In this document: piece after piece, positions 3,213-33,426 of the stretch
Layout of the letters: every line of letters starts with the position of its first letter
Position numbering within the stretch: position 1 is the first letter of the stretch
Assembly: GCA_016946835.1 (NCBI GenBank)
Contig: JACVTC010000217.1
Coordinates: 1 to 64,000 of the forward strand
DNA from: Neocallimastix lanati (nom. inval.)
Taxonomy: Eukaryota > Neocallimastigomycota > Neocallimastigomycetes > Neocallimastigales > Neocallimastigaceae
Reading direction: 5' to 3'
Length of the DNA: 64,000 nt
Notes under the pieces: generated by a model
Told to the model about the DNA's origin: nothing
Seen by the model: the letters and a program-made list of their open reading frames with translations, nothing else
Database searches by the model: none
Made by a program: the position numbers and the translations under genes

Positions 3213-3218
3213 AAAAGT

Positions 3219-4292
3219 TGTTATGGTTCGAGAATTCAAAAAAAAAAAAATTATATAATATTAAAACACAAAAAAAAATTTTATTCTTTCACAATAATTT
3301 TTATTTATTTATTATATTTTATTTTAATTTTTATTTTATTTTTATTATTATTTTTATTTATTTATTTTATTTTTATTTTATTTTTATTATTATTTTTATT
3401 TATTTATTTTATTTTTATTTTATTTTTATTATTATTTTTATTTATTTATTTTATTTTTATTTTATTTTTATTATTATTTTTATTTATTTATTTTATTTTT
3501 TTTTTTATTTATTTATTTTTATTATTTCTATTTTTTTTTCTTTTTTTTTTTTTTTTCTCTCTCTCCTAAAAAGGGGTTCCAAGGTAGTCAATTTATATCT
3601 TTTTGAAGATATAAAAGTAGCAAAGCCTCTGGAAGTAGTTGAAGAGATGGAAAAACAATAGATTTTTAAATCTTATTGATTATTTCCTTATTGTAATAAA
3701 TAGAAATTTATTATTTCCTAATATTCAATTAACCAAAATAAATCTATAATATAAAAGATGCATTATAGATAAGAATTAAACAAAAAAAAGAGAAGCAGTA
3801 TTACAATAAAATTGAATACTTTAACTTAATTTTGATACTAATTTAATATGTAATCTTATATATTAATTTGAATGACATAATAGAAAATAAAATACATTTA
3901 TTAATATATGAAAAATCTTTTACAATTTTAAATACAGAAAATTTTATTTTATTTATTTCTTTCATTTCAATTATTTCTTAATTCGAAAGACAGAAATATT
4001 GATAAAGTTATTTAAGTTGTTTATATACAGGAATTATTCCTTATTTAGAAAAATAATACTAAAAGTAATTAGTACTATGTTATTGCTAAACTCTCATAAA
4101 TTTAATTTACCTTTATAAGGAATGAACATAAATTTAAATTAAATTTTATGTATAAACTTAAATTTTCAGATCAAATAATATAGTAAAATTATTAATGTAA
4201 AGAATACATAAATTTATTAATATTTTAAAATTCACCTTGACTATATTAAAAGGTTTTTAATAAGAATCAATTTATTACTTCATTCTTTATCA
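3219..4292 (-). repeat. 3' LTR of element B
   Basis: 1074 bp, nearly identical to 11095-12170. It contains about four copies of a 42-bp T-rich tandem repeat (about 3340-3490). In one plus-strand frame this repeat reads as an artificial Phe/Ile-rich protein, which I do not regard as a gene. Confidence 0.95.
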
Positions 4293-4332
4293 CGATGCCC
4301 CCGCTAAGACTCAAGCTATATTGTAGCTGAGT
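4293..4332 (-). promoter_or_regulatory. Polypurine tract and pre-PPT hairpin of element B
   Basis: Read on the minus strand, a hairpin ACTCA-GCT / AGC-(T)-TGAGT (plus 4325-4332 and 4309-4317, 7-nt loop) overlaps the end of pol. It is followed by the purine-rich AGCGGGGGCATCG that abuts the LTR and should prime plus-strand DNA. The hairpin shape, with one bulged base on the 3' side, is shared with elements D and E. Confidence 0.75.
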
Positions 4333-7300
4333 TATATTTTACTATATTTTTGAGGTGTACATTCCGATTTAATAATATTCCTGAATTTGGATCAGCTAAC
4401 GTAACTGTATTAAAACTTTTTCTTGATTACTTTTAAAGGTCCATTAAAATAAGGTTCTAGTTTAGTTCTACTAAAGTTTCTAACTAGGACTAAATCTCCC
4501 TCCTTGATTTCCTTAGCCTGATTCATACTTTGTTTTTCTTCTCGTCTAACAGCCCAATATTTATTTGCATTTTTCACATTTTCTGATGCTTCTATGGTCC
4601 ATCTATAATGAGATATAAACTTTTCCAATAGAAGTTCATCAGAAGATTTATTTATACCTTTAGTCGGTCTTGCAGCTATATCAAAAGGTTGTTGGTCTTC
4701 ACGACCATAAACTAATTCAAAACTAGAATGGTTAGTGGTACTATTTTTAACGGTTCTTAAAGCCCAGAGAGCAGAGGGTAATACCTCATCCCAATCTTTA
4801 TTTTTGTCCCAAGCAATCTAAGGAGTTTACCAATTTCTTTATTACGATTTTCCGTAAGTCCATTAGATTCGGGATGATATGTTGTAACAAATTTTATATA
4901 TACATCATATAGGTCTAAAAATATTTTAGTCATATCTGATGTAAATTGGGCACCATTATCGGTGGTAATTACTTGGGGAACTCCATGACGAGAAAATACG
5001 TTAATAAGGAACTTAATTACGTCTTTAGAAGTGATATTTTCAGTCGGTTCTGCTTCTACCCACTTAGTGAAATAATCAACAGCTACTATTATATATTGAT
5101 TATTACTTCTAGTTTTAACCAGTGGACCGATAATGTCCAAACCAAGATGTACAAAAGGTCCTTCCACTTTAGTAGGTAGATTTTCTGTAGGCTCTGGATA
5201 AGGTTGTGGTCGATTTAATTGACATTTTTCACACTTACTGACAACACGTTTAACATCATTCACCATGTCGTTCCAATAATAACTCTTACGTAAACGTTGA
5301 TAAGTCTTATAATAACCATCGTGTCCAATATTATGAGCCTCTAATATTAATTTTATTCTTTCATTAAGATCGGTTACTAATTTTCTATAATTGTTACCAT
5401 CAATAAAGTAGTCAATACCATCAATAGTGGTGAATTTTTCATTGATAAAATCATGTATTACTTTGGATAATAAGGCTTCATTTTCATCATTCGTAATATC
5501 ATGGTTAATTATTTTCGTAGCTAAAACTACATTTTCTTTATTATTTTTCATTCGGGATAGGGCATCAGCAAGCACATTCTTTTTACCGGTTTCATATCTA
5601 ATGTCTACACCAAGCATACTAGCTGTCAAACACCATCTAGTTTGCCTTGCATTATGTGGTTCCTTATTTTTGAACAACCCTAGTAACGGTTTATGGTCCG
5701 TATATACAATAGTTGGTATTGGATTTCCATCTATATACGGTTTTAATTTAGTTATACAATAATATAGGGCAGCACCTTCTAGGTCAGTTATACCATAATG
5801 CTTTTCTGCTCTGGTCAAACTTCTACTAATAAAGTGAATAGGGTGTTCTTTTCCAGTTTCATTATCTTTTTGTAATAACACACCTCCTATTCCATCATAA
5901 GAAGCATCGGTACGTATAATAAATTCTTTATCAAACTGAGGGAAACTTAATATGGGTGCATTTATTAGTTTTTCTTTCAGTACTTCAAACGATTTTTGGT
6001 GTTCACTAGTCCAAACATACTTCACACCTTTCCTTAATAATTTACACAAACACGCAGTAATTTGTGAATATTTATCGATGAAATTTCTATAGTATCCAAC
6101 AGCTCCTAAAAATGAACGTAATTCATGGATGTCCTGAGGGGGTTTCCAATCTCTGATAACCTCGATTTTACTATCAAGAGGTTTTAAGCCTTTAGTGGTT
6201 AATCTATGCCCCAAAACATTCACTTCTGTTTTCATGAAGTGACACTTTTCAATATTAAGTTTTAATCTATTTTCTTTGAGTATGGATAAAACTTGTTGAA
6301 TATGTTGGAGGTGTTCTTCAACTGTTTTAGAGTATATAAGTATATCATCGATAAAATTATAAACACACTTTCCTATTAAAGGAAATAGGATTCTATTCAT
6401 TTCTCTTTGAAAGGTTGCAGGAGCGTTGGTTAAACCAAATGGCATAACTTTAAATTGGTAGTTACCAAACTTAGTGGTGAAAGTTGTTATACCAATACTT
6501 TCTTCCTCCATTAAAATTTGGTGATATCCAGAGTATAAGTCAATGGTAGTGAAGATAGTTGCACCATTGAGACTATCAAAAATTTCATCAATGTATGGTA
6601 TAGAATAAGAATCCTTTATAGTAGAATCATTAACCTTCCTATAATCTACACACATACGCCATTTCCCATTAGGCTTTGGTACTAGAACAATAGGCGAAGA
6701 CCATTCAGAATTTGAAGGCTCAATTAACTTTTTATTAATTAACTTAGTTAATTCTTCCTTTAAAATATCTGTCTTTAATTTTGTTAGCCGATAAGCTCTT
6801 TGTTTTATAGGTTTGGTACCAGCTTTTAGATTTATTTTGTGTGGTGAAAGCAATGATGGTGTTAATTCCTCAGACGACGTAGCAACAATTTCTATATTGT
6901 CCTCTAATAGGTGTATTATATCAGTTCTATATTTTTCATTTAGAGTATTCATAAATATTGTATTATGTATATATTCCATAGGTGGTAATCCTTCTAATTT
7001 CTTTAATTCCCCACCAGCATATTTTTCCTTACTATTATCCTCAAGTAATTTGTTAACACTACAAATATATTTTTCGTCAATTGCAGAATTATTTATTGGT
7101 GTAATAGAACTGATAGTACCATCCATGTTATATTTACATAAGCAATTATTTAAGGGATTAATAAATAATCTATTATCAACTATAGTTTTTAAATTAATTA
7201 GCATGTCATAAAATGGTTCCTCTTTTTCTACAATTCGGAAATCAATTAACAATGAAAGCTCATTAATTTTCACAGGTATCCTAACGACTATTCCTTCAGA

Positions 7301-8518
7301 GTATTCATCGTCTCTAGTGGCAAGCATTATTCTACCACAACTATGACCAACAACGGTATATTGGTATGGTAGAGAATTATAATATTTTTGTGACATAATA
7401 TTTAAATTACTACACGTATCAATAAGTAATTTTCCAGATACACCATCAACAGAGGCATCTACCATTGCAATATCCTCCTCTGTTATTTCTGTACTTTTAC
7501 TTTTATAGTTATGATCAACATTATTAACTAATGTTGTAGTAGCAACTACATTATTAATAGCGCCAACAACATTAGTGGTGGCTTTTACTAGTTTTAAACC
7601 TTGGGAAACTTGACTTCTTATTTTAGGCGCAGCATTCCAAAGCTGTCCAAAGGTAATATTACACTTGGTATTGCTTAAATCATCCCATACATCATATTCC
7701 TTATAATTAGAAAGCATTTTAATAATTCGATTTACCCGAGGTATTTTCATACTATTATTATTATCATTATTATTATTATTATTAATACCATCTGTATTAA
7801 TTAATTTATTTAATATATTTTTATTATTCGTTACATGATTATTATCGATAATAGTTTCATTATTATTAATATTAATAGTATTATTATTATTAATATCATT
7901 TACGACTGGGGTTTTTCTAATAGTTCCGTTGTTACTATTATTAGGATTACTAGTATTATTATTATTATTTTTGTCTTTTTTTCTTTCTCTAGTTTGGTTA
8001 ATTTCCCTTGGAGCTTCTACATTATCAACTTTTGAAGTTATTTCCTCTTTATTAGTAATTAAGTTTACATTAGACTGACTGGATGATGCAGTTTCGAATT
8101 CTTTAGAATTAGTACTAGATTTCAAAAATCTTTCTTTATCACGTATTGCTTTTTCAATTTTCTTTTCTTTATTGATATTTGGTTGCATAATTATTGATGT
8201 TTGCAACTGTTTCTTATGAGGTATCACCTCTTCAGTTTCCAATTCTCTTTCTTTTCTTTTTCTTAATGCAGGAGTGTTTATAGGTCGTGGATTATCACGT
8301 AGGCTTTTATGAATTTTCCTTCCTTTTCCATTATCTAACTCAACATCACTTTCATCAAGTTTTCTTTTTGCCGCACCGACAAAATATTCTCCTACCTGAT
8401 CATGACTTTTGATAGTATAATCCACTCTGTAGTCTTTACTTTCTGCATCAGAAGAATTGGAAGTATATTTTAATGAAGCTATTTTTTTGATGGGAGTGCT
8501 TCCTCTCCCTTCTACTGG
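4316..8518 (-). pseudogene. Element B pol polyprotein (PR-RT-RH-IN), two frameshifts
   Basis: Reached from gag by a -1 frameshift at 8518-8524. Order: Lys/Asn-rich N-terminal extension; retropepsin-like domain with LIDTCSNLN (Cys where Gly is usual); RT with MPFGLTNAPATFQ and the catalytic FIDD; RNase H with RTDASYDG; integrase zinc region ending CEKCQ; integrase core with LDIIGP, TTDNGAQF and the Glu in ESNGLTENRNKE; and a GPF/Y-like YFNGPLKVIKK. No chromodomain is seen. A one-base deletion near 4812-4818 (after GKLLRLLG) and a one-base insertion near 4409 break the frame. Together they restore the original phase, and the stop would be at 4316-4318. Otherwise it aligns along its length with pol of D and E. 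It is probably inactive in cis but recently so. Confidence 0.92.
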
Positions 8519-8524
8519 TTTAAA
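8475..8524 (-). promoter_or_regulatory. Programmed -1 frameshift site of element B
   Basis: On the minus strand the gag codons are CCT TTA AAC CAG TAG, so the slippery heptamer is T TTA AAC (8518-8524). After an 8-nt spacer comes stem 1, GGGAG (8505-8509) with CTCCC (8492-8496). GAAGC in its loop (8498-8502) is complementary to GCTTC downstream (8475-8479), across an A-rich 12-nt segment. This fits an H-type pseudoknot. The pol frame is open from the slip site onward and has no ATG close to its start. Confidence 0.85.
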
Positions 8525-9471
8525 GGTCCTTTGGAAAAAATCTGTTTCTTATTTTCTTCTATAATGGCTTGTAGTTTGGGACAATGTTGTTGATAATGTC
8601 CAGGTTCCTTACAGAAGAAACAGGTTTTGACGGTAGAGTTTCTTGGTCCACGTGTAAGGTTCTCCCTTTCACTTTCATCAGAAACTTTCCTATTGTCCCT
8701 GTTTTCATAAGTATTTCTTGGTGGTGAACTACGACTCTTATTATAATTATTATTATTATTGTTGGAAACATTTCTATTAGGACTTGGTACACGATGTAAC
8801 CTCACAGCAAGTCTATCCACTTTTTCTGCAATTTCATAAGCCTTTGAAAGTGGTATATCATCAATTAAAGTTACTCTTTTCCAGGCCTCAATATTATTCT
8901 CAAGTGCATCAGCATAGTCCAAGATACTGATTTGTTTTTTGTGAGTTTTATCTAATTTTAAATATAATGTCCGATATCTTTTATTAAAATCCCTTACTTT
9001 TTCATTTCTACCAATTTTAAGAGCACGCAATTCCCTTAATAAGGTATTCTGATCTTCCTTTGCCCCATAGAATACTTCAAGAGCGTTGACGATCTCGACA
9101 AAAGAAGGATAACGGTTAGTTCTAACACTATCATTACTAGAACTACTTGAACTAGTAGAGCTACTGGTGCTAGATCCTGACATCTCACCAGTATCAGTGG
9201 AACCATTCAATTCTACATCTTCTTCTGCTGTAGTAGCAGGTAGTTCTAATTCTTGGATAATTTGTCTTGGTTCACCAGTAGACGTTAATAGGCAAGCAAC
9301 AAAAATAGTTTTTGGATCAGTGATATTTTGTAATTGGATCCATAACTCAATTTCAGAAGCCCAAGATTTTATATCCAAATGGTCCTTGTTTAATTTATCA
9401 ACATATTTTAGTTCCTTTTTAAGATCTTTAAATGAAGGAACATTAGTAGTATCATTAGTAACTGAAGCCAT
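8512..9471 (-). CDS. Element B Gag (capsid/nucleocapsid)
   Basis: A Gag of 319 residues that should assemble the particle and bind element RNA. I chose the ATG at 9471 (MASVTNDTT), because gag of D starts at the equivalent place; an upstream in-frame ATG at 9516 would add 15 residues. The N-terminal half is a helical capsid-like region (DIKSWASEIELWIQL), followed by a Ser-rich linker, a second helical part (FYGAKEDQNTLLRELRALK) and one CCHC zinc knuckle, CFFCKEPGHYQQHC, near the C-terminus. It ends LNQ-stop exactly at the frameshift signal. It is collinear with gag of D and E. Confidence 0.92.
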   Translation of the reverse strand: MASVTNDTTNVPSFKDLKKELKYVDKLNKDHLDIKSWASEIELWIQLQNITDPKTIFVACLLTSTGEPRQIIQELELPATTAEEDVELNGSTDTGEMSGSSTSSSTSSSSSSNDSVRTNRYPSFVEIVNALEVFYGAKEDQNTLLRELRALKIGRNEKVRDFNKRYRTLYLKLDKTHKKQISILDYADALENNIEAWKRVTLIDDIPLSKAYEIAEKVDRLAVRLHRVPSPNRNVSNNNNNNYNKSRSSPPRNTYENRDNRKVSDESERENLTRGPRNSTVKTCFFCKEPGHYQQHCPKLQAIIEENKKQIFSKGPLNQ

Positions 9472-9529
9472 ATTTCTTGAGTAGAAATTATACAGTAATA
9501 TAGGTAAAATATTCAAAATAAAAATAATA

Positions 9530-9601
<72 letters not shown>

Positions 9602-11070
9602 TTGTGTGTGTGAGTATGTTATAGATATATATAATATAGTATTAGAATTTATAAGTTTACAAACACTTCAGAGATTAGAAAAAAAAAATAGGTAAGTTTA
9701 CAAACACTTCAGAGATAAAAAAAAAAATAAGTAAAATTTTTTTTTTTTTTTTTTTTGTTTTTTTTTTTGTTTTTTTTTTTGTTTTTTTTTTTGTTTTGTT
9801 TTATTTTGATATCCAAGATTAAAATATTTTATAATTATTGTTTATTAAATTATATCTTTATAGTTATTTATATGAGGTTCGAAATACACTTCGACCACCT
9901 ACAAGAAATATATTTTTAGGTTCGAATAACACTCGACCACCTAAGGAAATTTTATATTATTGGTTCGAATACCTTTCGATCACCAATAGAAGATATAATT
10001 ATATTAAGGTTATAAGCTCGAATGACACTTCGACCACTTATAATGATAATTATTTGGTTCAAGATACACCTCGACAACCAAATCAAACAGGTAGTAAAAA
10101 AAATATAGTAGTCCTTCTTCTTTGGCTCAATTTCACTTAACCACAGAGTAAGAACAGTAAACAAAAATTTTTTTTTTTTTTTTTTTTTTTGGAATTCAGT
10201 ACACTAGAATTTCTTATATGTAGCACGGAATAAATTAATTGCTAAATTAAAAAAAATTAATATGGAAAATTTATAAATATTTCTTATATATATATTATTA
10301 GCTTTATATTATTTTCGGATCCGCAGATTCTTTACAGGGCCGTTCGACCTCCACTATTGAACCGTCAGAATAGTGAATATAACAGAGTAGTGTGTGCCTG
10401 TACGAACACGGGACCTTACCACTTTTTCTATTCTGTTATCACTTGTATCACTAAACCTTATTCAATAATGCTCTACTACCTCCCTATGTGTAAAGCAATC
10501 CTTCTCCTATTCTCTAATATAAACGTCTAATTTTTATATCTATATATATCAACAGTCTTGGTATCAATATATAGATACTATATATATGTATATATTTATA
10601 AATTTGAATTTATAATTTCAATTATAATATAATTTAGTCGATAATATAAATACGAATTACTATATACACTTAATTGTAACAAAGCCTTAAGCTAAGGAGT
10701 TTTTCATCCAACAGCCGCCGATTACAATAAGTTATAAATTGTATAAAAGTATTCTTATATTAATGAATAAATGTATAATATAATTAAATTATTATTCTTA
10801 CTAATTAGTACTTGACAGGAATAAATATTTCAAAGTTTTATATCACACTGTTTCTCTTGCACAAACAGAAATATAACAACTTTGTTGAATGAAATTATTT
10901 ATCCAACTAATATAGTAAGGACGTAGGTGCTACTTTAAATTATTAATATTTATTTATGTATATATTATATTTCTATATTATTGTAAAAAAAATTTTTTTT
11001 TTTTTTTTTTTTTTATTTAATTAAATAAAATTATTGTGTATGTTTTAATATTAGTTTTTAATTTTGAAAT
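9472..11070 (-). other. Long leader of element B with hairpin array
   Basis: About 1.6 kb between primer site and gag with no credible ORF. It holds an A-run in the RNA (plus poly-T 9531-9599), further A-rich runs at 9738-9800 and 10167-10190, an array of five or six related hairpins (9875-10083) and a less AT-rich block at 10310-10460 that could be a packaging or translation structure. A plus-strand 100-codon frame over the hairpin array looks accidental. Confidence 0.7.
9875..10083 (-). repeat. Array of five covarying hairpins in the element B leader
   Basis: Hairpins lie at 9875-9900, 9916-9944, 9959-9987, 10010-10043 and 10052-10083. Each has an outer stem, a 2-nt bulge on one side, an inner TCGA/TCGA stem and a 6-8 nt loop. 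Outer stems differ but remain paired: AGGT/ACCT, TTAGGT/ACCTAA, ATTGGT/ACCAAT, TTATAAG/CTTATAA and ATTTGGTT/AACCAAAT. In the fifth, one inner TCGA is TCAA. A degenerate sixth unit may lie at about 10120-10150. Confidence 0.85.
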
Positions 11071-11087
11071 CCCCGATATCTCCACCA
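11071..11087 (-). promoter_or_regulatory. tRNA primer-binding site of element B
   Basis: On the minus strand, TGGTGGAGATATCGGGG starts 7 nt after the LTR. It would pair with a tRNA 3' end CCCCGATATCTCCACCA. The same 17 bases occur in D (35108-35124) and E (42808-42824). I cannot name the tRNA. Confidence 0.85.
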
Positions 11088-11094
11088 AACTTTA

Positions 11095-12170
11095 TGTTAT
11101 GGTTCGAGGAATTCAAAAAAAAAAATTATATAATATTAAAACACAAAAAAAAATTTTATTCTTTCACAATAATTTTTATTTATTTATTATATTTTTATTT
11201 TAATTTTTATTTTATTTTTATTATTATTTTTATTTATTTATTTTATTTTTATTTTATTTTTATTATTATTTTTATTTATTTATTTTATTTTTATTTTATT
11301 TTTATTATTATTTTTATTTATTTATTTTATTTTTATTTTATTTTTATTATTATTTTTATTTATTTATTTTATTTTTTTTTTTTATTTATTTATTTTTATT
11401 ATTTCTATTTTTTTTTCTTTTTTTTTTTTTTTCTCTCTCTCCTAAAAAGGGGTTCCAAGGTAGTCAATTTATATCTTTTTGAAGATATAAAAGTAGCAAA
11501 GCCTCTGGAAGTAGTTGAAGAGATGGAAAAACAATAGATTTTTAAATCTTATTGATTATTTCCTTATTGTAATAAATAGAAATTTTATTATTTCCTAATA
11601 TTCAAATTAACCAAAATAAATCTATAATATAAAAGATGCATTATAGATAAGAATTAAACAAAAAAAAGAGAAGCAGTATTACAATAAAATTGAATACTTT
11701 AACTTAATTTTGATACTAATTTAATATGTAATCTTATATATTAATTTGAATGACATAATAGAAAATAAAATACATTTATTAATATATGAAAAATCTTTTA
11801 CAATTTTAAATACAGAAAATTTTATTTTATTTATTTCTTTCATTTCAATTATTTCTTAATTCGAAAGACAGAAATATTGATAAAGTTATTTAAGTTGTTT
11901 ATATACAGGAATTATTCCTTATTTAGAAAAATAATACTAAAAGTAATTAGTACTATGTTATTGCTAAACTCTCATAAATTTAATTTACCTTTATAAGGAA
12001 TGAACATAAATTTAAATTAAATTTTATGTATAAACTTAAATTTTCAGATCAAATAATATAGTAAAATTATTAATGTAAAGAATACATAAATTTATTAATA
12101 TTTTAAAATTCACCTTGACTATATTAAAAGGTTTTTAATAAGAATCAATTTATTACTTCATTCTTTATCA
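11095..12170 (-). repeat. 5' LTR of element B
   Basis: 1076 bp, matching 3219-4292 with a few indels in T runs. It carries the promoter for the minus-strand transcript and ends at the target-site duplication inside the 5' LTR of element I. Confidence 0.95.
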
Positions 12171-12675
12171 AAGTTAGTAAAATTGTTGTTGTAGTCTGGT
12201 GGTAATATACCATGACAATGAAGCCGAACTTCATAGGTTCGACTCACACCCTTTCCCAATCTAAATTATTTTTAGTTAATTAATTAAATTATTGTAGAAA
12301 GTTCTAGAGTTTCTTTGGTTAATATTATATAACTAAATGAAACTAGAAAGTTCTATTTTAATAATTATTTTATCATTTTTCTATAAGATTCATTTTCTAG
12401 AAAGAAAACTTAATTTTTCGAACTTTCGTTAATCTTAACTTTTTCCGAAACTGTTTTTCTGAAAAAGTATAAATAAGGTGAATTTCTCAACAAAAAATAA
12501 TTTTTTCTTCGTGCTTTTATTAACTAGTTAAAAGTAATTCGAAATATTACAATAACTAATTAATAATAAAAAATAATAATAAATTTTATATTTTAATAAA
12601 AAATATTAATAAAACAAATTTTTTAAGAAAACGAATTACTTATTAGTGTAGACCTATTGGGTGTAAACCGTTACA
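12171..12675 (+). repeat. 5' LTR of element I (5' tip removed by insertions)
   Basis: Matches 58407-58926 apart from the first ~15 bases. Ends CCGTTACA, the inverse of the LTR start TGTAACG seen at 58407. TATAAATA at 12468-12475 is the likely TATA box. GTGCTTTTAT at 12511-12520, about 40 nt downstream, is complementary to the ten bases following the LTR. A tRNA-like module lies near its 5' end. Confidence 0.9.
12185..12250 (+). other. tRNA-like module in LTR I (A and B boxes)
   Basis: A-box-like TAGTCTGGTGG at 12192-12202 and B-box-like GGTTCGACTCA at 12236-12246, 33 bp apart, in a tRNA-like layout. A hairpin ATGAAG/CTTCAT lies between them. The outer acceptor stem does not pair and the T stem is poor, so it is not a functional tRNA; it resembles an internal RNA polymerase III promoter. 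Element B is inserted 10 bp upstream of the module. Confidence 0.65.
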
Positions 12676-12685
12676 ATAAAAGCAC
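12676..12685 (+). promoter_or_regulatory. Self-priming site of element I
   Basis: ATAAAAGCAC immediately follows the LTR and is the exact reverse complement of GTGCTTTTAT (12511-12520) near the predicted transcription start. No TGG-type tRNA primer site is present. This is the Tf1/sushi arrangement, in which the mRNA 5' end folds back to prime reverse transcription. Confidence 0.75.
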
Positions 12686-13503: not shown

Positions 13504-13901
13504 ATCACGGGATATATCAAAAAAATCAACTCTGAAAATATCCAATCTCAAATCACTCTCAAAATCAATCTGAAATTTTATATCAACTTAATGCAATAAA
13601 TTTTAAATCTCAATAATCTTTTCTAAATTATTTCCAGCTCTCTATAACTATTAAACTACTATAATAATATATATACAAATCTACTATACCTAATTTAGTA
13701 TATTATATAAATTTAAAATTTCAATACCAAACCTTATTTAATTCTAAATAATTCCAGTGGGATCAATTATTACTATTTATATATTCAAATCCTCCTTAAT
13801 CAAAAGTATATTATAATTCAATTCCTCTCTATTATACTGAAAAAATCGTTCTTAAATATATCTTATTCCAATTTATTCAATAATCAACTATAAAAATAAC
13901 A
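12686..13901 (+). other. Leader of element I with minisatellite
   Basis: No credible ORF. A tandem repeat of 'ggaaatctaccaactcaag' and 'aaatcaagg' modules fills 12731-12943. A less AT-rich block at 13085-13330 contains a short ACGAT/ATCGT hairpin, and a poly-A run lies at about 13467-13498. Confidence 0.6.
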
Positions 13902-15076
13902 GTGAAACTTATATTCAAAATGGAAGAAAACAATTTTGCCAACGCAACCTATAAGGATGGTTTTGCCGGAGATAGACGATACCTTAAGGGATTCTTAGCT
14001 AAAATGAATTTAATCTTCATGATTCACCCTGATCGATTCAATAATGATGAAACAAAAGTAATCTACGTTATTTCTAGGTTATATGGTAATGCTATGAATT
14101 GGGCAGCATCACTTATGGAGAATCAGGACCCTTGCTTGTTAAATTACGAAGCCTTCGTTGAAAGAATGAAATCTGTATATGGGAGTTATGACTCAACATT
14201 CATTGCAAATCAGAAACTCAGAACTATAAGACAAAAACGGTTAGGCGACATTAGAAGCTATATACTCGAATTCAACTCTTATGCCGACGAGTCATCTTGG
14301 AACGAAGAAGCGAAAATGGACGCATTTCTTGTTGGTTTAAATGATCAAATCGCTACAAGAATTCTGGAAATGTTCCCTGGTCCAAGATCTCTTACTGCTA
14401 TGCAAACTATAGCTTCCAGAATAGATGGCCGTCTATCAGCCCATAGGCAATTTACAAATAATCAAAATCGATCAAACAATAACCTTAATAACAACAATTC
14501 TAATAAGAAAAGATGGAATTTTTATAAGAAAGGTTCGAATTCTAAACATTATGGACCCCTATCCGACGAAGAAAAAGAAAGAAGAAAAAGAGAAAACCTC
14601 TGTTTATATTGTGGATCCTCAAATCATACTCTAGGCAATTGTCCACTCAAAAATAAGAAAAAATCACCCTCAAGCACTTCTCATATTACTAATCCTGAAC
14701 CAAAGGCCAAAGAAAGAACAAGAATCTCAGATCAACAAAATTTGAGTCTTCCTATATTTGAATTCACTCTCAATGTTTTAAAATCATCAGTCAAAACTAA
14801 GATTCTTCTAGATTCAGGTTCTCAACTTAATCTTATGGATGTCTACTTTGCCAATGAAAATAACATTCCTTATTCATCCGAAACCATTCATCCTGAAGTA
14901 GGAGGAATTGGTGGTACTCAGAAAATTCTCGGGGAAACTTTGCCAATTTCGATCCGCTATAAAAATCACAATTGTAAAACTAAGTTTTATGTCGTCGATT
15001 TACCTTCATATTGTGCTCTTCTTGGCGCTGAATGGCTCTCTACTCATAATCCAACAATAGATTTCTCTTCTAAAAC
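13902..15076 (+). pseudogene. Element I Gag-protease, first half of an interrupted gag-pol ORF
   Basis: Open for about 390 codons from ATG 13902 (or ATG 13920, MEENNF). N-terminal sushi/Tf-type Gag with GNAMNWA and RLGDIRSYILEFNSYA; an Asn-rich linker; a zinc knuckle CLYCGSSNHTLGNC; then a canonical retropepsin with KILLDSGSQLNLM and ALLGAEWL. Gag and protease are in one frame, unlike elements B to E and H. Solo LTR I'1 is inserted right after SSKT, so seven LTR-derived residues end the present frame. The original frame resumes at 56875. The element cannot make an intact product. Confidence 0.9.
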
Positions 15077-15706
15077 TGTAACGGAGGTGCTTCTATTGTA
15101 AAGGCGGGATAAGATATAGAAACACAGAAAGGAGAAAACTCAATAGGTTTACACTATCTGTATAAATAATTCGTTTTATTAGAAATATTTTTTATTAATT
15201 ATAAAATTTAAAATAATTATTAATATTAATCAACAAGGTAATATTTCGAATTACTTATACGTTAATTATTATTAATAAAAGCACGAAGAAAAATATTTTC
15301 ATTCGTGAAGTTCGCACTATTTATACTTTTAACGGAAAAACAGTTTTAACATATAAAAATAATTTTAAAGAAATATTTAGAAATATGTTTAAATAATTAA
15401 TAATGTAAAGTTTCTAGAATATAGATTTTAATTGATGAAAATGAATCTTATCAAAAAAGAATAAAATAATTTATATAATAAGAATTTCTAAATTCATTTC
15501 GGTTGAATTACGAACCGAAAGAATCTTTAACTTTCTATAATTTTATACAGAAAGAATATTCAAGAAGATATTATTAATAATTAATATAATAATTAATAAA
15601 ATAATTATTTATGCAAAATGGGTTGAGGTGTGAGTCGAACCCATGAAGTATTGGTCATGGTCAATGTAACTAACCATTGAACCAAAGTTCTAATTTTACT
15701 AACTTG
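15077..15706 (-). repeat. Solo LTR I'1, main part
   Basis: I-type LTR on the minus strand, starting TGTAACGGAGG on the plus strand; its other end (ATTTCGTTACA) is at 56858-56869, after nested insertions. AAAAC flanks both ends (15072-15076, 56870-56874). It contains a TATA-like sequence, the R-like GTGCTTTTAT (minus strand of 15275-15284) and a tRNA-like module. A second copy (I'2) begins at 31760. Confidence 0.88.
15628..15691 (-). other. tRNA-like module in LTR I'1
   Basis: On the minus strand: A box TGGTTCAATGG (15674-15684, full match to the tRNA consensus) and B box GGTTCGACTCA (15631-15641). The 5' end of the module would be near 15691. Ten bases farther upstream (15692-15701) is the ACTTG target duplication of element F. 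Acceptor and T stems do not pair, so it is tRNA-like rather than a tRNA gene. Confidence 0.65.
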
Positions 15707-16168
15707 TGATACGTGACCACTATAAAAATGGTATTTAGGTAGATTCTTTAGGTTAAAGAAATACTTAAATATTATTGGTCAATAATTTTATAATAATATA
15801 TATAATTTTAGAATAATAATTATTAAACGGAGAATTCTTTTATTTATGAGTTTATACTTATGATAAATTAATTCATATAAATAGCTATTTTATATTTTAT
15901 TTTAGTATAGTTAAAAAGAGATATTATATATATTTGAGATAATTAATTATAATATTTATATAAGAGAGTAATAATAATAATTTATGTAATAATTAATAAT
16001 TAATAATAAATAAAGAGAACATTAAAAAGATATATTTATTACTTTATTTTGTATTATTGTATGTGTTATTTCTAATTAATATTAGAATATATTATTTTGT
16101 CATAATTCCTTATTGTCATTGCCCATAAATAAATATTAATTTAGATACATAAATAAAATATCGTATCA
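15707..16168 (+). repeat. 5' LTR of element F
   Basis: 462 bp, TGATACGTGACC to CGTATCA, apparently identical to 18134-18595. Confidence 0.95.
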
Positions 16169-16172
16169 AATT

Positions 16173-16190
16173 TGGTGGAGAATCCGGGCG
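16173..16190 (+). promoter_or_regulatory. tRNA primer-binding site of element F
   Basis: TGGTGGAGAATCCGGGCG begins 4 nt after the LTR; it would pair with a tRNA ending CGCCCGGATTCTCCACCA. It differs from the primer site of both B/D/E and C. Confidence 0.75.
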
Positions 16191-16403
16191 TGACAATAGC
16201 AAAATAATATGAAAATAATATTAATAAAATAATACATCTACATAATAAATATATAATAAATATTATTTAGTATATATATAAAAAGAATTTAATTAGTTTA
16301 AATTAGTTATTAATAATTATAATAGTAATAGTTATAATAATATTAAATTGAATTAGAAAATTGTAATAAAAAATATATATAAGAATAAATAAAATTTTTA
16401 AAG

Positions 16404-17849
16404 ATGAATGTTTTTAAGATATTAAGTACGTTACCATTATTAGAAAATTATAATAATGATATCAATGAATGGATAGAAGAATTAACCGAGTCATTTGAAT
16501 TATGGGATATAAAAGAACAAGAAAGAAGATTTATTTTATGTAAAGAATGTGTAAATAAAGAAATTAGGTATGTTCTTGATGAATTAAAGGAAGAAAAGAA
16601 TCAGGTTCCTAGCTTAAAAGAAATAAAAATAGCCTTAGAAGAATATCTAGAAATAACACCAAGCGTGAAATATTGGAACATAATTAATTTGAAAATTAAT
16701 TCAAATGAATCAATTAGTAATTTTAATTATAAATACTTAAGAAAATATAATGATATTGATAATAATATAAAGAAATTAATTACTGTTAATAATTATGTTA
16801 ATTCAATTAAGTCTAGAATATATCCTTGTTTAAGAATATTAGAAGAAGAAATCGAAGATATAAACGAAGCTCTCAAGTATGCAGAAAAAGTTGAAAGAAT
16901 TGAAAAGAAATTAAATTTAAATTTAAATAATATTTATAAGAATAATAAACAAAAATGGAATAATAATAATTTCAAAATGAATAAATTAAATAGTAATATA
17001 AACAATAAGAATAATAAAATTATGTGCTTTAGATGCTATGAGTTAGGTCATAAAGCTGTTAATTGTAGACACACATTTAAAGAATTAGCGGAATTAGAAA
17101 GAACTGGAATTTTGGAAATAAATAAAAGAAGAAATTTTATACCTGGAAACCATAATAATTATAATTATAAATTTAATTTATATGATAGAAATAAAAACTA
17201 TAATAATTATTATCGTAGAAATTATAATTTAAATAGTAGTATTACTGAAAATCATCATAATATGACTAGTTTTGGTAAAAAGCATAATGTGAATAGAGAA
17301 ATTTATAGAAATAATTATAATTTAAATAATAATTTTGGTAATAATAATTATAATAATTTAAATAATTATCTATATAAAAGTAATTATGATTTAAATAAAA
17401 ATTTTGGTACCAATAACAATAACAGTAATTTAAATGAGAATATAAATACAATAAAATGTAGAATCAGCAATAATCATGGTATAAATTATAATAAGCAAGA
17501 AAATAAAGATGTTAATATTGGAAATGAAATTAATTTCAACAATAATTTAAATACTAATTGTGTAGAAAATACATTTAATTCAAATATAAATAATATTCAG
17601 GATAATATAATTGGAAATAATATAAATAAAAACAATAATGGATATAGTAGAAACATAAATTCATTAGGAAATAATAATAGTTTTAATAATAACAATACTA
17701 ATAACAATACTAATTATACAAATAACGAAAATAAAAATGTTAATAATGTTATTGAAATAAATTATAATAAAAACAATAATAATAATAACAATAATAACAA
17801 TAATAATAATCAAAAAAAAAAAAAAAAAAATAAAACAATAAATAAATAA
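16404..17849 (+). CDS. Element F Gag with long Asn-rich tail
   Basis: 481 residues from ATG 16404. The first ~170 residues align with Gag of element C (DINEWIEELTESFELW, VPSLKEIKIALEEYLEITP, INEALKYAEKVERIEKK). One zinc knuckle, CFRCYELGHKAVNC, lies at about residue 208, followed by FKELAELE as in C. Where C-type gag stops at its frameshift site, F reads on without a stop: a short stretch resembling the C pol frame (ILEINKRR against IFELLNGRR), then about 240 residues very rich in Asn with Tyr and Lys. It ends in Asn and Lys runs. It should bind RNA and build particles; the tail has a prion-like composition. Why the tail is kept is unknown. Confidence 0.85.
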   Translation: MNVFKILSTLPLLENYNNDINEWIEELTESFELWDIKEQERRFILCKECVNKEIRYVLDELKEEKNQVPSLKEIKIALEEYLEITPSVKYWNIINLKINSNESISNFNYKYLRKYNDIDNNIKKLITVNNYVNSIKSRIYPCLRILEEEIEDINEALKYAEKVERIEKKLNLNLNNIYKNNKQKWNNNNFKMNKLNSNINNKNNKIMCFRCYELGHKAVNCRHTFKELAELERTGILEINKRRNFIPGNHNNYNYKFNLYDRNKNYNNYYRRNYNLNSSITENHHNMTSFGKKHNVNREIYRNNYNLNNNFGNNNYNNLNNYLYKSNYDLNKNFGTNNNNSNLNENINTIKCRISNNHGINYNKQENKDVNIGNEINFNNNLNTNCVENTFNSNINNIQDNIIGNNINKNNNGYSRNINSLGNNNSFNNNNTNNNTNYTNNENKNVNNVIEINYNKNNNNNNNNNNNNNQKKKKKNKTINK

Positions 17850-17985
17850 ATAAATAATTTAATTATGATGAATTATTAATAAATAAATAATTATATATAT
17901 ATAACAATAATTTAAATTAAATTAATTCGAAATTTCAAGATTTCGAATTTCAAAAATTAAAATAATCATTAATTCAAAAATTTAA

Positions 17986-18016
<31 letters not shown>

Positions 18017-18046
18017 AATAAATCCAATAATTAAATTTTAATAAAC

Positions 18047-18078
<32 letters not shown>

Positions 18079-18093
18079 ATTATATTGTTATTG

Positions 18094-18133
18094 AGACTTC
18101 AGGGGACGAAGTCTAATTTAAGTGGGGGCGTCT
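18094..18133 (+). promoter_or_regulatory. Pre-PPT hairpin and polypurine tract of element F
   Basis: AGACTTC (18094-18100) pairs with GAAGTCT (18108-18114) across AGGGGAC, followed by the purine-rich AAGTGGGGGCGTCT next to the LTR. Nearly the same structure lies at the end of element C. Poly-A runs at about 17996-18014 and 18050-18075 precede it. Confidence 0.75.
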
Positions 18134-18595
18134 TGATACGTGACCACTATAAAAATGGTATTTAGGTAGATTCTTTAGGTTAAAGAAATACTTAAATATT
18201 ATTGGTCAATAATTTTATAATAATATATATAATTTTAGAATAATAATTATTAAACGGAGAATTCTTTTATTTATGAGTTTATACTTATGATAAATTAATT
18301 CATATAAATAGCTATTTTATATTTTATTTTAGTATAGTTAAAAAGAGATATTATATATATTTGAGATAATTAATTATAATATTTATATAAGAGAGTAATA
18401 ATAATAATTTATGTAATAATTAATAATTAATAATAAATAAAGAGAACATTAAAAAGATATATTTATTACTTTATTTTGTATTATTGTATGTGTTATTTCT
18501 AATTAATATTAGAATATATTATTTTGTCATAATTCCTTATTGTCATTGCCCATAAATAAATATTAATTTAGATACATAAATAAAATATCGTATCA
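18134..18595 (+). repeat. 3' LTR of element F
   Basis: 462 bp, apparently identical to the 5' LTR. Followed by CTTG (18596-18599), the target-site duplication, and directly by the first LTR of element C. Confidence 0.95.
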
Positions 18596-18599: not shown

Positions 18600-19322
18600 T
18601 GATACGGAACTAACTAATAATTCGTATTATACTATTGGAAATTATAATTAAGTTTAATAACTTTATGTATTAAATATTTTAAACTATTTTTATAATTCCA
18701 AAATTTTATTCTTAATTTAAAATAATTATATAAATTATCAAATTAAATTGATTAATGACTAATTATTAAAAAATCATTATTTAATTAAATTGATTAATGA
18801 CTAATTATTAAAAAATTATTATTTAATTAAATTGATTAATGACTAATTATTAAAAAATCATTATTTAATTAAATTGATTAATGACTAATTATTAAATAAT
18901 TATTATCCTATATTAATTAAATTGTTTTATTATTATATTTAATTATTATTAATATTAAATTGTTTCAAGAATTATATTATCAAAAATATTACCAATAATT
19001 TTATTGTTAAATTTTTTAATTTTATCATTAATAATATTTGTCATTAAAGATAATATTAATTATATTAGTATTAATATTTTTATTATTAAAATAACTCTTA
19101 AAAAATATTATTTAAAATCACATGTAATAATTATACTAATAAGAATTAAAATAATTTAAATTATTATAAAAATTCATGTAGTAAAATAGTATAAAAGAAA
19201 AAGAAAATACTTAATAAAAAATCAGGAGTTAAAAAAATAAAAAAAAACTGGAAATTGAAATTAAATTATTAACTAATATATTATTTTCATTTTTTTTTGA
19301 AGTTTATTGTGTACCTGCACCA
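18600..19322 (+). repeat. LTR 1 of tandem element C
   Basis: Begins TGATACGG and ends CCTGCACCA. Contains four tandem 42-bp units (AAATTGATTAATGACTAATT...) from 18745 to about 18900. Confidence 0.95.
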
Positions 19323-19325
19323 AAT

Positions 19326-19344
19326 TGGCGAGCTATGCAGGACA
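19326..19344 (+). promoter_or_regulatory. tRNA primer-binding site of element C (copy 1)
   Basis: TGGCGAGCTATGCAGGACA starts 3 nt after the LTR, matching a tRNA 3' end TGTCCTGCATAGCTCGCCA. The second copy is at 25055-25073. Confidence 0.8.
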
Positions 19345-19471
19345 CAAAGAAAATAATATGAAAAATTAATAATTTAAATAAATATTAAGAAATTTTAATT
19401 ATAAAAAAAAAAAAAAAAAAAATTAATTCTATATTAAAAATAATATAATAAAATAAATTAAATTGCCAAGA

Positions 19472-20329
19472 ATGAAAATCTTAGAACTTGAGGAACTACT
19501 ACCTAGGCTTGATGAAGATGCTAGAGACGTTGATATCTGGGCCGAAGAATTCACAAGATTAATGAAATTAGCTGGTATTAACAATCCAGCTAGCATTCAT
19601 ACCTGGGCGACTGAATGTGTTGAGGGCAAACTCAGGGGAGTCTTACAAGATCTGGTGAAAGTCAATGAAGATGAAGAAGAAGAATTTCCTTCTATGAAAA
19701 AAATAAAAGAAGCCTTAGAAGAAGCCTTAGAAATCACTCCACAGGATAAATGTAAAAGATTACAAAGATTAAAAATAAAAAGAGGAGAAAGTATTAAAAA
19801 TTTTAATTGGCGATATAAAAAACTTTACAATAATTTACCAAGACTTTATCAATCTTTCATAACAGTGGAGGATTATACTGAATCCATTTCATACCGACCT
19901 TTTGCTAGAGCCCAGGTTATAACTCAAAGATGTGTAGATCTCGAGGATGCATTTGAGGAAGCGGAATTAGCCGAAAGAGCCGAAGAGAGGAAAGAAACAA
20001 ATGAAACTGTAATGTCTACTTTATATACTCGGGGGGTTTATTCAAACTTTTCTCAATCAAATAGAACTGGGAAACATCCTTTTAGACAATTTTCTGCCAA
20101 TAATTATATAGAAGTTAACAACCCCAAAAGAAATATGAGAAGTCGCACTAATGATAAACTCTTAAATAAGAATCCAAAATACGAGACTAACAATACATAT
20201 AAAAGAACATATAAGTGTTTCAGATGTAACCAGGAAGGTCATGGTGTCAAGCAATGCCCTTATTCATTTAAGGAATTAGCTGAGTTAGAGGAAAAAGGTC
20301 AGATTTCAAAGGAATCTTTGAACTCCTAA
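19472..20329 (+). CDS. Element C Gag, copy 1
   Basis: 285 residues from ATG 19472 (MKILELEELL); a TTG three codons earlier is less likely. Helical capsid-like region (DVDIWAEEFTRLMKLAG; QDKCKRLQRLKIKRGESIKNFNWRYKKLY), an acidic stretch (EDEEEEF) and a zinc knuckle CFRCNQEGHGVKQC near the end. It stops at the frameshift signal (SLNS-stop). Only about 130 nt of leader separate it from the primer site. Confidence 0.93.
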   Translation: MKILELEELLPRLDEDARDVDIWAEEFTRLMKLAGINNPASIHTWATECVEGKLRGVLQDLVKVNEDEEEEFPSMKKIKEALEEALEITPQDKCKRLQRLKIKRGESIKNFNWRYKKLYNNLPRLYQSFITVEDYTESISYRPFARAQVITQRCVDLEDAFEEAELAERAEERKETNETVMSTLYTRGVYSNFSQSNRTGKHPFRQFSANNYIEVNNPKRNMRSRTNDKLLNKNPKYETNNTYKRTYKCFRCNQEGHGVKQCPYSFKELAELEEKGQISKESLNS

Positions 20330-20349
20330 ATGGAAGAAGGAAAACTTCC
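20317..20349 (+). promoter_or_regulatory. Programmed -1 frameshift site of element C (copy 1)
   Basis: Gag codons TCT TTG AAC TCC TAA give the heptamer T TTG AAC (20317-20323). Exactly 8 nt later GGAAG (20332-20336) pairs with CTTCC (20345-20349). The pol frame is -1 and open through the junction. The heptamer is not a perfect X XXY YYZ, so efficiency may be low. The second copy is at 26046-26078. Confidence 0.7.
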
Positions 20350-23300
20350 CTTATAAAAACCATAAATGATACTGAAACTGATGATATCGTAGCAGCTGTC
20401 ACTAGGCAAACAAGACAATTAAATACAAAAAAGAAACCTTACGATAAACATCAGAAAATAGCCACATTAAAAGAAAATCCTCAACCAATAAAAATGCTTT
20501 CGAAATCACAAACAAATGATCGAAAAATGGAAGTAGAAGTAGAAAATAATAATAATGAACCAAAAAGTAACAATGAAGAAGAACCCTTAAATAACCCAAA
20601 AAATAGAGAAGAAACGGAAACCTTAAAAGAAATTGACTTGTCTGTGATAGCCAACCCATCAATAAACAAAGCAAAAAGGGATTCAAAGAAGGAAAGAATA
20701 TCAGAAATAATGGATAAGAAACCCGAAGAAGAAGAAATGAGAAAAAAGGTTACAGCTAAACTACCCAGTACTCAAATGGAAGAAAAGAAGAATAAATGCG
20801 AAAGATTAAAAAATAATAAAAATAAAGAAGAAATGAGAATCGAAAATAAAAATGAAGAGAATCCAAATAACAAAAAGGAGAAGCACATTATTCTAATGGA
20901 AAACCAAGCAAAGTACGATCTTGTAACTGATTTAACATCTACCACAGCTAATATAACTCTGGCTCAATTGTTGGATATAAGTCCAAAATTACGAGCTCAA
21001 CTTAATAAATTGTTAAAGCTAAAAGAAACACCTCATAACGGAAAAATGGAAGAAATGGTATTATCTACTGTCTCAAGGAAGGATATAGCTACTACTAAAT
21101 GTAAAATTAACGGAGAAGATGGATTCGCCTTTTTAGATACATGTGCAAGCATCAACATAATAACGAGTAAGTTTTTAGGCAAGTTGAAAAATATAAAACC
21201 ATTTGGTTATACAACTAACAATATTATACAGGTAACTTCGAAGACCCACATATCCTCTGAATTATATCATTTAACAGTTGAATTCAACGATTTCATTATT
21301 CAAGACGTATTTAGAGTAATAGAACATGATCAGGATCTGTTTGATATCTTGATAGGTTTTAGGACCTTAAAGGATAATAATTTATTCATTAATCCTATTC
21401 GTAATAGTCTATGTAAAATGAAGAAAGATGGTACATTTACAACAATCTCAGCTTTAGAAATAGATGAAGAAGAAAAAGAAATTGATGAAGAAGAAAAAGA
21501 AATAGATGAAGAAGTAAAAATTGAAGAAACTGAAATGCAAGATAATCCAGACTCCATGTTATTTTGTTTCATAAACAAAGAATCAGCAGAAATACAGAAT
21601 GCAATTACGATTAAGGAAAATAAAAAAAACAAAGAAGAAAATACAATCATTGAAGAAAAGAAGACAAGAATTGAACAAATTATAAAAAATACAATAGAAG
21701 TAGTTAGAGGCCGATTCAAGGAACTATTAAAAGATAATATTGAAATCTTAGCAATAAAAATAGATGAATTAGGTTCAACAAAGTTATTACCGCACCATAT
21801 CAGTTTAGAAGAAAATACGATTCCAATCAAACAAAAAGCTTATCGATTATCTAAAGTACAAGCAGACGCCCTGAAGGAAGAGCTAATTAAATTACTGAAC
21901 AACCATTTAATTGAACCATCCAGTTCACCATGGTCTTCTCCAGTTATTCTTGTAAGGAAGAAGAATAATAAATGGAGAATGTGTATAGATTTTCGGAAGC
22001 TCAACAACGTTACTATTAAAGACGCTTATTCTCTGCCACTAATAGATGATATACTTTTCTCAATCGGAAAGAAAGTTAAAGTATTTTCAACAATAGATTT
22101 ATTCTCCGGCTTTTATCAAATTCCAATGTTCCATGAAGACATTCCCAAAACAAGTTTTACAACAATGTACGGTAATTACCAATTCCGGGTAATGCCGTTT
22201 GGTTTATGCAATGCCCCAGGAACCTTCCAGAGAGAGATGAACAGGATATTTTTTCCGCTCATTGGGAAGTGTATGTTTATATATATCGATGATTTAATCA
22301 TATTCTCTCCAACTTTTGAACAACACATAGAAGATTTGAAGAAAGTATTTGATATCCTAAAGGATAATGGATTAAAAATCAATCTCGACAAATGTGATTT
22401 TTTCAAGGAATCAGTTGAATTATTAGGACACACAGTATCAATTGAAGGAATATCACCAATTAATAAAAAAATTGAGATTATACGTGAATGGTTACCTCCT
22501 ACCAACATCACGCAATTACAATCATTTCTTGGAGCAGTAGGTTATTATAGGAAGTTTATATACAACTTTGCAACAATTGCCAAACCTCTATTTAAACTAC
22601 TTAAAAAGAATGTAAAATTCTCTTGGGAAGCTGTTCAACAAGAGAGCTTTGAAGAACTTAAACGAAGATTAATCACAGCCCCTATTTTATCAATGCCTGA
22701 TTTCGACAAACAATTTATAATCAGGACAGATGCCTCAAAAGATGGAATAGGTGGAGTCCTGATACAAAAAGATGAAAATAATATCGAAAAACCAATACAT
22801 TATATGAGCAGAACTTTGAAACCAGCTGAAGTAAACTATGGGATTACAGATTTAGAAGGAGCTGCCGCCGCTTTTTGTGTTAAAAAATTTAAATCCTATA
22901 TTTCGGGAAGTAAATTCGAAATATTGTTGTTCACAGATCACAAACCATTAATAAGTATATTCAAAAGTAAAGAAACCTTAAATGCCAGACAGTCAAGATG
23001 GGTAATTATGTTCTCTATGTTAAAAGTTAAAGTCATTTACGAACCAGGAAAACGTAATGTATTAGCGGATGCGTTATCTCGACTTAGATCAAAACCATCG
23101 GAAGTAATAGCTACCTATTTAGAAGAAATTAATACAGGAAAAAATTCGTTATTAAAGAAGTTTGAAGAAAAATTTTCAAGAATAAACAATGAAGAATATT
23201 TTATAGATGGAGGCACATTCAGAAAAGTAATTAAAGAAGATAAAGAAAAAATTAAACTATTATTAGAAGCCCATAGGATAGGCCATGAGGGAATCTTCAA

Positions 23301-24315: not shown

Positions 24316-24328
24316 AGAAAGGGCGTCA
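24290..24328 (+). promoter_or_regulatory. Pre-PPT hairpin and polypurine tract of element C (copy 1)
   Basis: AGACTTC (24290-24296) pairs with GAAGTCT (24303-24309) across AGGGAC, followed by AAAGAAAGGGCGTCA next to the LTR. The second copy is at 30019-30057. Confidence 0.75.
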
Positions 24329-25051
24329 TGATACGGAACTAACTAATAATTCGTATTATACTATTGGAAATTATAATTAAGTTTAATAACTTTATGTATT
24401 AAATATTTTAAACTATTTTTATAATTCCAAAATTTTATTCTTAATTTAAAATAATTATATAAATTATCAAATTAAATTGATTAATGACTAATTATTAAAA
24501 AATCATTATTTAATTAAATTGATTAATGACTAATTATTAAAAAATTATTATTTAATTAAATTGATTAATGACTAATTATTAAAAAATCATTATTTAATTA
24601 AATTGATTAATGACTAATTATTAAATAATTATTATCCTATATTAATTAAATTGTTTTATTATTATATTTAATTATTATTAATATTAAATTGTTTCAAGAA
24701 TTATATTATCAAAAATATTACCAATAATTTTATTGTTAAATTTTTTAATTTTATCATTAATAATATTTGTCATTAAAGATAATATTAATTATATTAGTAT
24801 TAATATTTTTATTATTAAAATAACTCTTAAAAAATATTATTTAAAATCACATGTAATAATTATACTAATAAGAATTAAAATAATTTAAATTATTATAAAA
24901 ATTCATGTAGTAAAATAGTATAAAAGAAAAAGAAAATACTTAATAAAAAATCAGGAGTTAAAAAAATAAAAAAAAACTGGAAATTGAAATTAAATTATTA
25001 ACTAATATATTATTTTCATTTTTTTTTGAAGTTTATTGTGTACCTGCACCA
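24329..25051 (+). repeat. LTR 2 (shared, middle) of tandem element C
   Basis: 723 bp, identical in length and apparently in sequence to LTR 1. It acts as 3' LTR of copy 1 and 5' LTR of copy 2. Confidence 0.95.
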
Positions 25052-25200
25052 AATTGGCGAGCTATGCAGGACACAAAGAAAATAATATGAAAAATTAATA
25101 ATTTAAATAAATATTAAGAAATTTTAATTATAAAAAAAAAAAAAAAAAAAATTAATTCTATATTAAAAATAATATAATAAAATAAATTAAATTGCCAAGA

Positions 25201-30044: not shown

Positions 30045-30057
30045 AGAAAGGGCGTCA

Positions 30058-30780: not shown

Positions 30781-30784
30781 TGAA

Positions 30785-30835
30785 TGGTAAAGAATAAATT
30801 AATAAACTTTATTTTATTATTAATAATTCTTTACT
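30785..30835 (+). repeat. Solo LTR L, left fragment
   Basis: Begins TGGTAAAGAAT. The rest (55896-56853) lies beyond elements H' and H, which entered at TTACT. TGAA flanks both outer ends (30781-30784 and 56854-56857). The beginning forms an imperfect palindrome (GTAAAGAAT with ATTCTTTAC). The right part resembles LTRs D and E (TTTCCTATATTCTTC). Confidence 0.7.
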
Positions 30836-31570: not shown

Positions 31571-31575
31571 TTACT

Positions 31576-33393: not shown

Positions 33394-33426
<33 letters not shown>

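Follow-up and report, generated by a model that had tools for sequence, protein, structure and literature searches.

Long terminal repeats with a Pol III-type module as probable landing pads for other retrotransposons in Neocallimastix lanati

LTRs of three families of Ty3/gypsy elements in the genome of Neocallimastix lanati, termed I, I' and I'' here, carry A and B boxes near their 5' ends, and other retrotransposons are repeatedly found inserted a short distance upstream of these boxes. We consider it very likely that this Pol III-type module acts as a landing pad, i.e. that the insertion of other elements is guided by the promoter and that nests arise by repeated filling of such pads. The idea goes back to an original prediction made for a single nest from its sequence. 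It is now supported by the pile-up of breaks at one spot of the LTRs across the genome and by the same spacing of an inserting element, T1, at tRNA genes. The nest lies in the stretch of 64,000 nucleotides that we refer to as the window (GenBank assembly GCA_016946835.1, contig JACVTC010000217.1, positions 1 to 64,000). The assembly comprises 199 Mb in 762 contigs. It contains at least 150 scored matches to the dockerin domain (PF02013), whereas none of 14 control genomes contains any; an abundance of dockerins is expected of anaerobic gut fungi.

Results

The nest in the window

We take the whole nest to lie inside one I element extending from 12171 to 58926 (Table 1). Its 5' LTR, I5, is followed by the internal start ATAAAAGCACC and is 99.4% identical to 58420-58926, and the polypurine tract GGAGGAGGACCA precedes the intact LTR at the other end. 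The original prediction had described three broken LTRs and a fourth, unbroken one of a single I type. All of them carry the module, but they fall into two families (I and I') that are about 69% alike over about 335 alignable bp. The fourth LTR is indeed whole and starts with TGTAACG; it is a 3' LTR, a class that is largely spared. The three breaks were also found where they had been placed. At I5, the terminus of element B (..TATCA) ends at 12170 and the LTR resumes with AAGTTAGTAAAATT at 12171. At I'1, the terminus of element F meets CTTG at 15703-15706, and at I'2 that of element X meets CTGA at 32387-32390.

Element B has LTRs at 3219-4292 and 11095-12170 that are 99.3% identical, and its target duplication AAGT is present at 3215-3218 and 12171-12174. 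Next to B, as had been noted, lies the end of element A at about 3212. Both solo I' LTRs have flanking duplications of their own, AAAAC at 15072-15076 and 56870-56874 for I'1 and ATAAG at 31755-31759 and 49042-49046 for I'2. A TGAA duplication had been ascribed to both L and E; this holds for L, but for E none of its own could be identified. The depth of the nest, which the landing pads had been invoked to explain, can be put down to two pads that contain 41 kb (I'1) and 16.6 kb (I'2).

The order reverse transcriptase, RNase H, integrase that is typical of Ty3/gypsy elements was found in B, E, D and L, and from RNase H on in M. B, E and D contain RT (RVT_1 in B), RNase H, H2C2 and rve domains and no chromodomain at E-values up to 1e-4; L has SH3_Tf2-1, and M has RNase H, H2C2 and rve. 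The ORF of F gave no Pfam match at E-values up to 1e-4. Among 120 matches listed for the pol of E, the named relatives of highest identity are Orpsp1_1 proteins (48-58%), presumably from Orpinomyces; proteins of Cordylochernes score higher, yet with an identity of 37%. Element E is a tandem of three LTRs and two internal regions, and it must be very recent because its 6452-bp units are 100% identical. The I5 and I'1 regions recur with the same junctions on another contig (G000:C313, about 29027-32578, loci L022 and L039), which probably belongs to the other haplotype or was duplicated in the assembly.

Table 1. Features of the nest in the window
Feature	Position	Strand	Remarks
Element B, Ty3/gypsy	3219-12170	-	in I5 pad; pol on minus strand
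I 5' LTR (I5)	12171-12675	+	first 13 bp removed by element B; module and remainder intact
A box TAGTCTGGTGG of I5	12192-12202	+	homologous to LTR position 36
B box GGTTCGACTCA of I5	12236-12246	+	
I-element gag ORF, Ty3 capsid-like	13884-15101	+	cut by I'1
I'1, solo I' LTR	15077-15706	-	module; B box 15631-15641
Insertions in I'1 pad	15707-56853		41 kb; F, E and L
Element F	15707-18595		in I'1 pad; duplication CTTG
Element E	18600-30780		in I'1 pad; no own duplication identified
Element L	30785-56853		in I'1 pad; duplication TGAA
I'2, solo I' LTR	31760-32390	-	inside left LTR of L; B box 32315-32325
Insertions in I'2 pad	32391-49025		16.6 kb; begins with X, then D and M
Element D	about 33994-42004		in I'2 pad
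Element M	about 42009-49025		in I'2 pad; duplication TGAA
I'2 5' stub	49030-49041	-	TGTAATGAAATC, then TTCA
I-element pol C-terminal end, Tf2-1-like SH3	56825-57904	+	upstream of polypurine tract
I'1 5' stub	56858-56869	-	TGTAACGAAATC, then TTCA
Intact I 3' LTR, empty pad	58407-58926	+	A box 58442, B box 58486

The predicted Pol III module and its carriers

The intact I LTR has a length of 520 bp and reads TGTAACG...CGTTACA; single copies of the I' LTR (L051) and the I'' LTR (L072) measure 644 and 611 bp, respectively. In one copy per family, the A box is located at LTR position 36 and the B box at position 79-80, i.e. at a distance of 43-44 bp, and a run of four to five T follows 23-33 bp past the start of the B box. 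A and B boxes at tRNA spacing with a T-run terminator correspond to the layout of a type-2 Pol III promoter. A pair of A and B boxes occurred in none of 20000 shuffled LTRs for each of the three families. Mean column identity among the LTR heads of I, I' and I'' is 77%, and the 15 bp GGTTCGACTCACACC are identical across one copy of each. Downstream of the module, TATAAATA is found at LTR position 312 in I, 396 in I' and 367 in I'', although other TATA-like strings are present too. The module had been called tRNA-like, which is correct for the boxes and their spacing but not for the tRNA itself: ARAGORN detected no tRNA in the 64-kb window or in the 60 loci scanned out of 140, and Rfam RF00005 gave no tRNA match to the module at E-values up to 10 in window positions 12120-12420, L051 and L007. 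As the cloverleaf is not recognised by these tRNA models, we rejected a tRNA gene or tRNA pseudogene as identity of the module. Overall, it resembles a Pol III promoter on its own rather than a tRNA.

In one I' copy (L050) and one I'' copy (L006), Chromo and SH3_Tf2-1 domains at the integrase C-terminus, accompanied by rve in I'', are encoded by ORFs located some 0.3 kb ahead of the 3' LTR. This placement of the chromodomain in a Ty3/gypsy integrase makes I' and I'' chromoviruses. The window copy of I has SH3_Tf2-1 only, and the chromodomain was thus seen in two of the three families. In the 19 pairs examined, carrier LTRs on the same strand are 2.9-8.4 kb apart.

Several further observations concern the carriers. 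Copy L138 (G000:C75:143201) combines an I' head with an I'' tail and is a probable recombinant of module families, and L100 (G000:C26:91220) is a 3' LTR lacking its first 35 bp, where the polypurine tract directly abuts the A box. Directly after the I 5' LTR, ATAAAAGCAC (window positions 12676-12685) is the reverse complement of GTGCTTTTAT at position 356 of the I LTR (437 in I'); this complementarity could possibly serve self-priming of reverse transcription as it has been proposed for Tj1. Four I and I' LTRs (L002, L020, L021 and L057) share identical host sequence ending in CCGACCTAAGCTATTATTTTATTTTACA in their 5' flank, so that the carriers, too, may favour a particular insertion site. ORFs for copia-type gag or integrase adjoin an I' copy (L050:2053-3627) and an I'' copy (L006:2-1015), which may mean that the carriers themselves insert into other retrotransposons.

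Distribution of breaks in the genome

The B box GGTTCGACTCA has 532 copies genome-wide (253+279) and its reversed control none. From the first 100 of the 532 places listed, 82 loci were sampled, and 79 of these B boxes lie within Ty3/gypsy LTRs of I, I', I'' or relatives, the other three being without an LTR match. Thirty of the 79 LTRs are broken about 20-25 bp before the A box, 46 are intact and three have odd 5' ends. Eight sampled rows were classed by hand (six odd, one mutated 3' LTR, one intact), and the flanks served to class two copies (L085 and L110) whose alignment overran by chance as broken. As a biased set, the 60 best LTR matches did not enter the rates. An even spread of breaks along other LTRs, named beforehand as the outcome that would speak against landing pads, was not seen, as the hot spot takes 30 of the 38 breaks in the sample. 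The remaining eight are the three odd 5' ends and five tail breaks, one in an undiverged copy (L137) and four in diverged or chimeric copies. The predicted hit at the very same nucleotide was confirmed to within a few bp but not exactly, since 28 of the 30 hot-spot copies align from LTR positions 10-16. Pads of the I'' family are filled as well (six copies in the sample). At least 17 clusters of LTR termini adjoin the breaks in 52 filled copies. The number of insertion events is lower than that of filled copies, as some of the latter (C132/C313; C9/C378/C382) probably reflect duplication between haplotypes or in the assembly.

Both junctions of an insertion were read for L041 (duplication CAGT) and L035 (TAAAG) in addition to F, L, M and B of the window. 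In these six cases the target duplications measure 4-5 bp, with 4 bp in five of the six. A search of the whole genome gave 50 LTR stubs that are followed by TGATA after no more than a few bp, compared to one in the reversed control.

The two LTRs of a carrier are not used alike. A polypurine tract precedes only two of the 50 stubs of filled pads, both with identical letters, whereas 26 of the 46 intact LTRs in the sample have one in front and are thus 3' LTRs, the other 20 not (Fisher P = 9e-9). The sample contains 23 LTRs that could be identified as 5' LTRs, 14 with a filled pad and nine intact. For 18 of the 23, an intact 3' mate is found no more than 9 kb away; as a 3' mate with a filled pad would exceed this distance and be missed, the count of stubs is the cleaner test.

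Insertions at tRNA genes

The terminus TTAGTACATTCTTATCA of the inserting element T1 has 762 matches in the genome (control, five). At 164 places a B box follows it after 52-80 bp, with none in the reversed control. Seventy of these 164 places are GGTTCGACTCA modules, and in 69 of the 70 the gap is confined to 63-67 bp out of the 52-80 bp allowed. Among 21 T1 strings inspected, ten read as tRNA genes, judged by known tRNA features rather than by a model, and 11 as modules. The distance from T1 to the A box is 21-25 bp in modules (n = 10) and 21-22 bp in tRNA genes (n = 8; three of the 21 strings were not scored), and T1 sits 14-15 bp before nucleotide 1 of the tRNA and 14-18 bp before the corresponding position at modules. 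T1 therefore inserts within a narrow window upstream of tRNA genes. The comparison with true tRNA genes that the original prediction had proposed thus yields the same spacing. By eye, no evident motif is common to the spacers before tRNA genes and the LTR pad in the strings inspected.

As an inner control, a B box was found at none of 31 inner ends of T1 5' LTRs versus 17 of 31 outer ends of full-length copies. The 100 T1 ends examined of the 762 comprise 31 inner and 69 outer ends. A B box in the form searched for lies downstream of 24 of the 69 but not of the other 45, for which the opposite orientation, variant B boxes or other targets may be considered. The control for B boxes in opposite orientation gave ten matches, and the five comparable ones are the same T1 places, matched via palindromic B boxes. 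Two further groups of termini precede B boxes at 45 and 19 places (controls, none), and the 45-place group is located at B boxes of the Pol III type. LTR-like sequences with TGTAACGAA starts or with A and B boxes behind T1 were noticed at G000:C2:613506, C19:10420, C5:244506 and in L020 near 1161 (minus strand). These loci probably represent two or more further module types.

Discussion

The landing-pad reading can be put in terms of the known Pol III machinery. The module near the 5' end of the LTR would be a minimal type-2 Pol III promoter that TFIIIC binds, TFIIIC would place TFIIIB upstream of it, and incoming integrases would, like that of Ty3, encounter TFIIIB or Pol III at this place. 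Since 5' and solo pads fill and 3' pads rarely do, a pad probably works only if no Pol II transcription passes through the module. Filling of a 5' pad would spare the Pol II promoter region of the carrier (TATAAATA) and should for this reason cost the carrier little. A nest would then grow by repeated pad filling. The attraction of insertions may be a by-product of having a Pol III promoter in the LTR.

That the breaks are genuine 5' LTR termini or mark a truncated subfamily, with no insertion involved, is hardly conceivable. A near-identical start is common to many copies, as this explanation would have it, but full copies (TGTAACG...CGTTACA) have free flanks of many kinds, and wherever this was checked, the absent 5' bases turned up beyond the inserted element together with target duplications, with 50 such stubs in the genome. 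We rejected an artefact of LTR termini on the grounds of these double junctions. Targeting by a DNA sequence at the LTR 5' end (AGTTAGTAAAATT or similar) that is unrelated to Pol III would account for the occurrence of CAGTTAGTAAAATT or AAGTTAGTAAAATT at the spot in both I and I'. However, I'' differs in sequence there and is filled in six sampled copies, T1 sites before tRNA genes have only the distance to the A and B boxes in common and no evident motif, and the identical sequence in 3' LTRs is largely spared. Motif targeting is therefore very improbable and was rejected, the spacers before tRNA genes looking unrelated.

Regarding the sparing of 3' LTRs, the simplest reading is that the Pol II transcript of the element crosses the 3' module and would clear the Pol III complex from it. 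We rejected a difference in age as the cause, as both LTRs of one copy are equally old. It is conceivable, though on balance somewhat unlikely, that the pads are real but the sparing stems from survival or assembly and not from occlusion of the Pol III complex by Pol II read-through: a filled 3' LTR should disrupt the RNA of the element, and such copies could be lost or misassembled. Against this, selection at a single locus does not remove a dead copy, the LTRs of one element share their age, and the 5' LTRs that we recognised are filled in 14 of 23 cases, with an intact 3' mate nearby in 18. A separate question is whether the module has been selected as a lure whose 5' pad absorbs rivals harmlessly and so protects the carrier or host genes. 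The share of modules among the T1 sites (at least 70 of 164), the position of the pad upstream of the Pol II TATA box of the LTR and the sparing of the 3' copy would fit, but a Pol III promoter could equally serve transcription, a chromatin barrier or another use with insertions as a side effect, and we regard selection as a lure as quite unlikely. A broader version is slightly less doubtful and still tentative: full-length chromodomain elements would carry a decoy Pol III promoter at which rivals dock harmlessly outside the Pol II promoter, Pol II read-through would shield the 3' copy, and the pads would compete with tRNA genes and build nested repeat blocks.

Integration next to Pol III genes is well documented. 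Ty3 of S. cerevisiae is reported to insert 1-4 bp upstream of the start site (PMC5911963), Tj1 of S. japonicus 5-11 bp before the mature tRNA end with a 5-bp duplication (PMC4600332), and DGLT-A of Dictyostelium about 15 bp upstream of Pol III genes (PMC5006619). The elements described here resemble these three in being of the Ty3/gypsy type and in having their insertions confined to a short stretch directly upstream of Pol III genes. They differ in that a large share of the targets consists of LTRs of other retrotransposons instead of genuine Pol III genes, and the duplications are 4 bp in five of six cases as opposed to the 5 bp of Tj1 (PMC4600332). The non-LTR element TRE5-A of Dictyostelium inserts about 47 bp upstream of tRNA genes and reportedly also hits bare A and B boxes on rDNA (PMC5391098). 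Pairs of A and B boxes are targeted without other tRNA-gene context in both systems; unlike the boxes on rDNA, those reported here lie inside the LTR of a mobile element.

Modules of this kind in LTRs have precedents, too. Helenus and TRIMp3 are non-autonomous TRIMs of 311-1263 bp that also occur in fungi, and Helenus LTRs contain a tRNA-like stretch in which the A and B boxes are conserved and which is mostly non-functional as tRNA; in its accessible part, the paper has nothing on LTR modules attracting other elements (Kojima 2024, PMC10886601). The carrier LTRs likewise have A and B boxes at tRNA spacing, with a putative derivation from tRNA. Unlike Helenus and TRIMp3, however, the carriers are not short non-autonomous elements but have ORFs for gag (I in the window), integrase, SH3 and chromodomain. 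A Pol III promoter within the LTR is also shared with Cassandra, which differs in that its promoter is of the 5S type (5S rRNA) and that it is a non-autonomous element of plants; a landing-pad role was not found described in the sources at hand. In the open-access literature, we found no paper on Pol III modules of LTRs as landing pads for other retrotransposons. The targeting of tRNA genes, the targeting of bare A and B boxes and tRNA-like boxes in LTRs are each already known. What appears to be new from our comparison is their combination, with LTRs of full-length gypsy elements that carry a Pol III module as a main target of retrotransposons, at the 5' but hardly at the 3' copies.

In regard to the biology of these elements, integration targeting can turn one mobile element into the preferred home of others with near base-pair precision, and deep nests are explained as growth from single pads. 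The near-identical 5' and 3' modules of one element and their sharply different use constitute a natural experiment that makes it directly testable how Pol II transcription acts on a Pol III target of integration. Matches to A and B boxes in fungal LTRs need not mean tRNA genes or SINEs. If the decoy reading were true, it would be a matter of mobile-element ecology in which one element is the habitat for many others.
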